Part shown: positions 12,485 to 12,817 of the stretch, piece by piece
Layout: each line of letters starts with the position of its first letter
How positions within the stretch are numbered: the first letter of the stretch is position 1
Assembly: GCF_001306175.1 (NCBI RefSeq)
Contig: NZ_LGKN01000003.1
Location: forward strand, 248,001 to 312,000
Direction of reading: 5' to 3'
From: Ardenticatena maritima
GTDB lineage: Bacteria; Chloroflexota; Anaerolineae; Ardenticatenales; Ardenticatenaceae
Length of the DNA: 64,000 bases
Notes under the pieces: generated by a model
What the model was told of the DNA's origin: nothing
Seen by the model: only the letters and a program-made list of their open reading frames with translations
Database searches by the model: none
Position numbers and translations under genes: made by a program

Positions 12485-12512
12485 TTGACGCGCCGGGCAG
12501 AGCGCATATACT
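12485..12512 (+). promoter_or_regulatory. Sigma-70 promoter for the SelW-like gene
   Basis: TTGACG (12485-12490), 16-nt spacer and TATACT (12507-12512), plus strand, 35 nt before the ATG at 12548. It shows that transcription covers the short reading frame upstream of the in-frame TGA. Confidence 0.75.
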
Positions 12513-12547
12513 GAACGGTGCAAGCCCATATCACAAGGAGGGACAAC

Positions 12548-12817
12548 ATGTCGAAGGTCAAAGTCACGCTTGAATACTGCGCTGTTTGAAACTACTTGCC
12601 GCGCGCCGTCAGTTTGACGGACAAACTGCTGTCGGAGTTTCAACACCACATTGAATCGTTCACGCTGATTCCCTCATCGGGGGGTGTGTTTGAAGTCGCG
12701 GTGGATGGGACGCTGATTTACTCCAAGAAGGAAACGGGGCGGCATGCCGTCTATGCCGAAGTGCGCGAAGCCTTCTTGAAGGTTGTGCCCCACGCCGCGC
12801 AAGATGCGGATTCGTAA
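12548..12817 (+). CDS. Predicted selenoprotein, SelT/SelW/SelH (Rdx) family; TGA at 12587-12589 read as selenocysteine
   Basis: 89 residues from ATG 12548 to TAA 12817 if TGA codon 14 is read as selenocysteine. The start has an AAGGAGG Shine-Dalgarno 6 nt upstream and its own promoter. The redox motif is Y-C11-A-V-U14-N-Y-L-P-R-A, where bacterial Rdx proteins usually have CxxC and animal SelW has CxxU. The frame then continues with family-typical GGVFEVAVDGTLIYSKKETG. Rdx proteins are thioredoxin-fold oxidoreductases. A stem-loop 22 nt after the TGA (12606-12620) fits a bacterial SECIS. If TGA were a true stop, a 13-codon peptide would result, and an in-frame TTG at 12596 would give a protein lacking the active site. 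Selenocysteine machinery (selABCD) must exist elsewhere in the genome; none is in this window. Confidence 0.85.
12606..12620 (+). promoter_or_regulatory. Putative bacterial SECIS stem-loop (SelW-like gene)
   Basis: A perfect 6-bp stem CCGTCA/TGACGG closes a 3-nt loop GTT. The loop begins 22 nt after the TGA and its first base is G; known bacterial SECIS apical loops lie about 16-37 nt after UGA with a G in the first two loop positions. It lies within the coding sequence, as bacterial SECIS elements do. Confidence 0.7.

Follow-up and report, generated by a model that had tools for sequence, protein, structure and literature searches.

The selW-like gene of Ardenticatena maritima lies at positions 12548–12817 of the window, the window being the whole 64-kb stretch of DNA that was analysed. 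The gene and its signals are as follows.

12485–12512, forward strand: candidate sigma-70-like promoter, TTGACG-16-TATACT, recognized by consensus alone; the congener (L049) keeps the TATACT box
12536–12542, forward strand: ribosome-binding site AAGGAGG, read from the sequence; AGGAGG is also present in the congener
12548–12817, forward strand: selW-like gene, 89 aa with predicted selenocysteine (Sec) at codon 14 (CAVU), assigned by frame translation and profile matches (PF10262; TIGR02174 CXXU_selWTH)
12548–12550, forward strand: start codon ATG, read from the sequence
12587–12589, forward strand: in-frame TGA, codon 14, predicted to be read as Sec given its conservation in 116 loci and the Sec machinery of the genome
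12606–12620, forward strand: predicted bacterial SECIS hairpin (loop GUU, stem CCGUCA/UGACGG); relatives show compensatory changes in it, and Cys homologues lack it
12815–12817, forward strand: stop codon TAA, ending the gene at 12817

From the ATG to the TAA the frame is open, with the TGA as its single interruption. The positions of the ATG, TGA, TAA, stem and loop in the initial annotation all proved correct when the sequence was read again, and the AAGGAGG, the ATG and a candidate for the promoter that it saw leading into the frame are present, with 5 nt between AAGGAGG and ATG. The read-through product would be 89 amino acids long, with the N-terminus MSKVKVTLEYCAVUNYLPRAVSLTDKLLSEF. Translation puts the redox motif, C-A-V-U, at residues 11–14, and the TGA is thus the second redox residue of the CxxC/CxxU motif, as had been claimed.

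The encoded protein, with U entered as C, matches the Pfam Rdx family PF10262 with an E-value of 3.4e-20 and 72.5 bits (cut-off 22.6 bits), the match spanning profile positions 1–69 of 74. It also scores above the cut-off of NCBIfam TIGR02174 CXXU_selWTH (60 bits, cut-off 34.2) and, by a small margin only, above that of NF041051, the SelT/SelW/SelH family (seleno)protein model named SelTWH_Campy (88.2 bits, cut-off 88). These matches uphold the Rdx/SelW-like identity proposed earlier. Two solved Rdx proteins, Atu0228 (2fa8, E 4e-13) and selenoprotein W (2npb, E 4e-5), match over most of the protein, this likeness being at the sequence level only. The genome has no other Rdx gene, and this one has exactly one in-frame stop, the TGA. 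Judged by its sequence, the gene is that of a canonical SelW-like CxxU selenoprotein, and we infer that the product would act as a thiol/selenol oxidoreductase.

The Ardenticatena genome (3.56 Mb, 98.6% complete) was searched for selA, selB, selC and selD, as the initial annotation had suggested, and the full set was found: a tRNA-Sec with the anticodon TCA (70 bits), and selA, selB and selD with 561, 355 and 367 bits, respectively. The selD gene has an in-frame TGA of its own (VACAGU; L130, about 1489–1551; C5:535771-536703). Selenophosphate synthetases are listed as a selenoprotein family (PMC1088965, PMC1794560), and Sec in selD is a known trait. None of the formate dehydrogenase matches in this genome contains an in-frame TGA.

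In genome contigs and class genomes, the redox codon is TGA in 116 loci (109 distinct sequences), compared with TGT or TGC in 14 loci (13 distinct homologues). The hosts of the TGA loci include Chloroflexota, Bacillota, Poribacteria, Desulfuromonas, Acidimicrobiia and others. When E. coli genomes were searched at the DNA level, no match was obtained. Among the homologues, conservation covers the CxxU motif and the N-terminal segment as far back as the ATG, and close relatives have no scattered stops, only one TGA exactly at the redox codon. In the congener, Ardenticatena sp. S012_161, both the TGA and the hairpin are unchanged, and selW likewise lies between an SMC-like gene and a methyltransferase-like gene, where the neighbours are putative, being named from translations by eye. 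Counted from the TGA onwards, 22 base changes between the two Ardenticatena genes fall in synonymous codons and 13 in non-synonymous ones, while no hairpin codon has changed. The frame downstream of the TGA is under purifying selection.

The hairpin has six base pairs, 12606–12611 with 12615–12620 (CCGTCA/TGACGG), closing a GTT loop that starts 22 nt past the TGA. In the single Ardenticatena sequence its fold z-score is −0.21, within chance, and a comparable hairpin arises in 11% of the synonymous recodings of this stretch, the identical stem in 6.5%. Hence folding of one sequence was dropped as an argument, and the hairpin is significant because it is conserved and covaries across the 109 distinct relatives. 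The full six-pair stem is seen in 89 of these and in none of the 13 distinct Cys homologues; since the latter are more distant from the query, the contrast is supportive and not a strict control. Each stem pair forms in 90–98% of the distinct TGA sequences, and the loop-initial G is present in 107 of 109. At the pair +21/+27, G-C replaces C-G in 31 sequences, at +20/+28 T-A replaces C-G in 38, and at +18/+30 T-A or G-C is found instead of C-G in some. The mean number of stem pairs is 5.70, against 4.78 (maximum 4.94) in 2000 codon-column permutations, although shared ancestry, which this test ignores, inflates the difference. When one stem arm is slid, the mean is at most 2.94. Thus, of the SECIS-like hairpin described in the initial annotation, the stem, the loop and the 22-nt spacing are real, conserved and covarying, but in this sequence alone it is unremarkable.

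The recoding of UGA codon 14 as Sec via the downstream hairpin, giving a CxxU protein, is in our view very well supported by the sequence comparisons, with a probability of about 0.97, because the TGA is conserved, the hairpin is conserved and covaries, the Sec machinery is complete, and TGA is otherwise an ordinary stop. In the likely mechanism, SelB carrying Sec-tRNA-Sec would bind the hairpin that follows the UGA in the mRNA by about 20 nt, the UGA would then be decoded as Sec, and the product would be a protein of thioredoxin-like fold whose redox centre is CxxU. We infer that Sec is actually inserted in Ardenticatena. Neither missing Sec genes nor close relatives with scattered stops, the testable observations that the initial annotation had named as counter-evidence, were found, and its proposal of Sec at this UGA is supported by the 116 TGA loci, the covarying hairpin and the full set of Sec genes.

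A lone TGA in an otherwise open frame might also come from a sequencing error, or from a nonsense mutation that hit an Rdx gene of the Cys type or one that is dying, and Cys homologues with TGC or TGT do occur elsewhere. However, the codon is TGA in 116 loci, which represent many phyla and include the congener, whose identical hairpin likewise argues against a sequencing error, and selection has acted on the frame past the TGA. Conservation on this scale rules out an error or a pseudogene in practice, and we consider such an origin of the TGA extremely improbable. A coding downstream frame would also be seen if the TGA stood for a different amino acid, such as Trp in genetic code 4, or were passed by generic read-through. 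However, TGA commonly ends frames in this genome: it terminates 14 of the 34 long non-overlapping frames of the window and, at other loci, 19 of 36 (the counts rest on mechanical frames, not on curated genes). The genome also has release factor 2; hence recoding of TGA throughout the genome is ruled out. Ten genes examined near the selW-like gene end in TAA or TAG only. As the homologues have Cys at this position, and both a SECIS hairpin and the full Sec machinery exist, there is hardly any probability left for a residue other than Sec.

It may further be supposed that translation starts internally, for example at the TTG at 12596, leaving the upstream frame untranslated. Mechanical ORF finding does yield 12596–12817, a protein of 73 aa. 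Against this, AAGGAGG and the ATG precede the TGA, and the conservation of the N-terminal segment and of CxxU reaches back to that ATG. An internal start was rejected on these grounds, its probability being negligible, and translation from the ATG through a Sec codon remains the preferred reading.

Two groups of relatives deserve separate description. The 690-kb plasmid of Cytobacillus spongiae (NZ_CP089998.1) carries, next to selD, a SelW-like gene (L153, 301–507) that has the TGA and a hairpin of the same type. This gene is not in the PLSDB gene table, which is incomplete, and may be a case of a missed gene. In three loci of the Verrucomicrobiales from two genomes (L121, L124 and L125; DUBC01000010.1, NYVP01000188.1 and NYVP01000027.1), both motif positions are TGA, giving a putative UxxU motif (ILYUGMUNYKPQAVSL). 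Their frames have an ATG followed by both TGA codons, and the usual hairpin comes after the second TGA. For the SelW-like family, the catalogues consulted give CxxU only (PMC13188914, PMC2398784).

Within the class, an Rdx gene is present in 179 of 396 genomes, and nearly all of the listed Rdx matches carry exactly one TGA. A tRNA-Sec match was obtained in 155 of the 179 genomes with Rdx as opposed to 140 of the 217 without it (Fisher p 5e-7, in a test that ignores shared ancestry). No tRNA-Sec match was seen in 24 Rdx genomes; 11 of them were looked at again, and 8 had selA, so that selC there was probably missed or is on a missing contig. The single-contig genome G325, where neither selA nor tRNA-Sec was found, has two Rdx genes (L136, L137), both of the Cys type, and no Sec-type one; a Cys-type Rdx in a genome without Sec machinery is what the Sec reading predicts. 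In G113 and G146 an Rdx gene is present, in G113 in the TGA form, and selA and tRNA-Sec were not found in the assemblies, which speaks against the Sec reading. Possibly, these assemblies are incomplete or the genes are decaying.

Bacterial selenoproteins of the SelW-like CxxU type entered the catalogues in 2005, and curated family models exist (PMC1088965, PMC1794560, PMC2398784, PMC9312934, PMC13188914). They are among the families of the bacterial selenoprotein survey (PMC1794560), account for 427 CxxU sequences in the Global Ocean Sampling set (PMC2398784), and are listed as SELENOW-like, PF10262, CxxU in the catalogues of 2022 (PMC9312934) and 2026 (PMC13188914). Literature titles and abstracts gave nothing specific that names Ardenticatena together with selenoproteins or the SelW-like family. 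The Ardenticatena gene is like the catalogued ones in family, CxxU motif, length, in-frame UGA and downstream SECIS with G in a small loop, and differs from them in nothing essential. As the family has been in standard catalogues since 2005, the locus is a further case of a known selenoprotein family.

Hence the locus provides one more example and no new principle, the product being an ordinary small redox protein. Its main interest is that standard gene finders and table-11 annotation tend to truncate or miss such UGA genes. That SelW-like proteins prefer Sec has been noted before (PMC1794560). The prevalence of TGA among the listed Rdx genes tentatively suggests that the class might hold this protein almost wholly in the Sec form, a generalization that we regard as rather doubtful; if true, it would point to a strongly Sec-dependent reaction.
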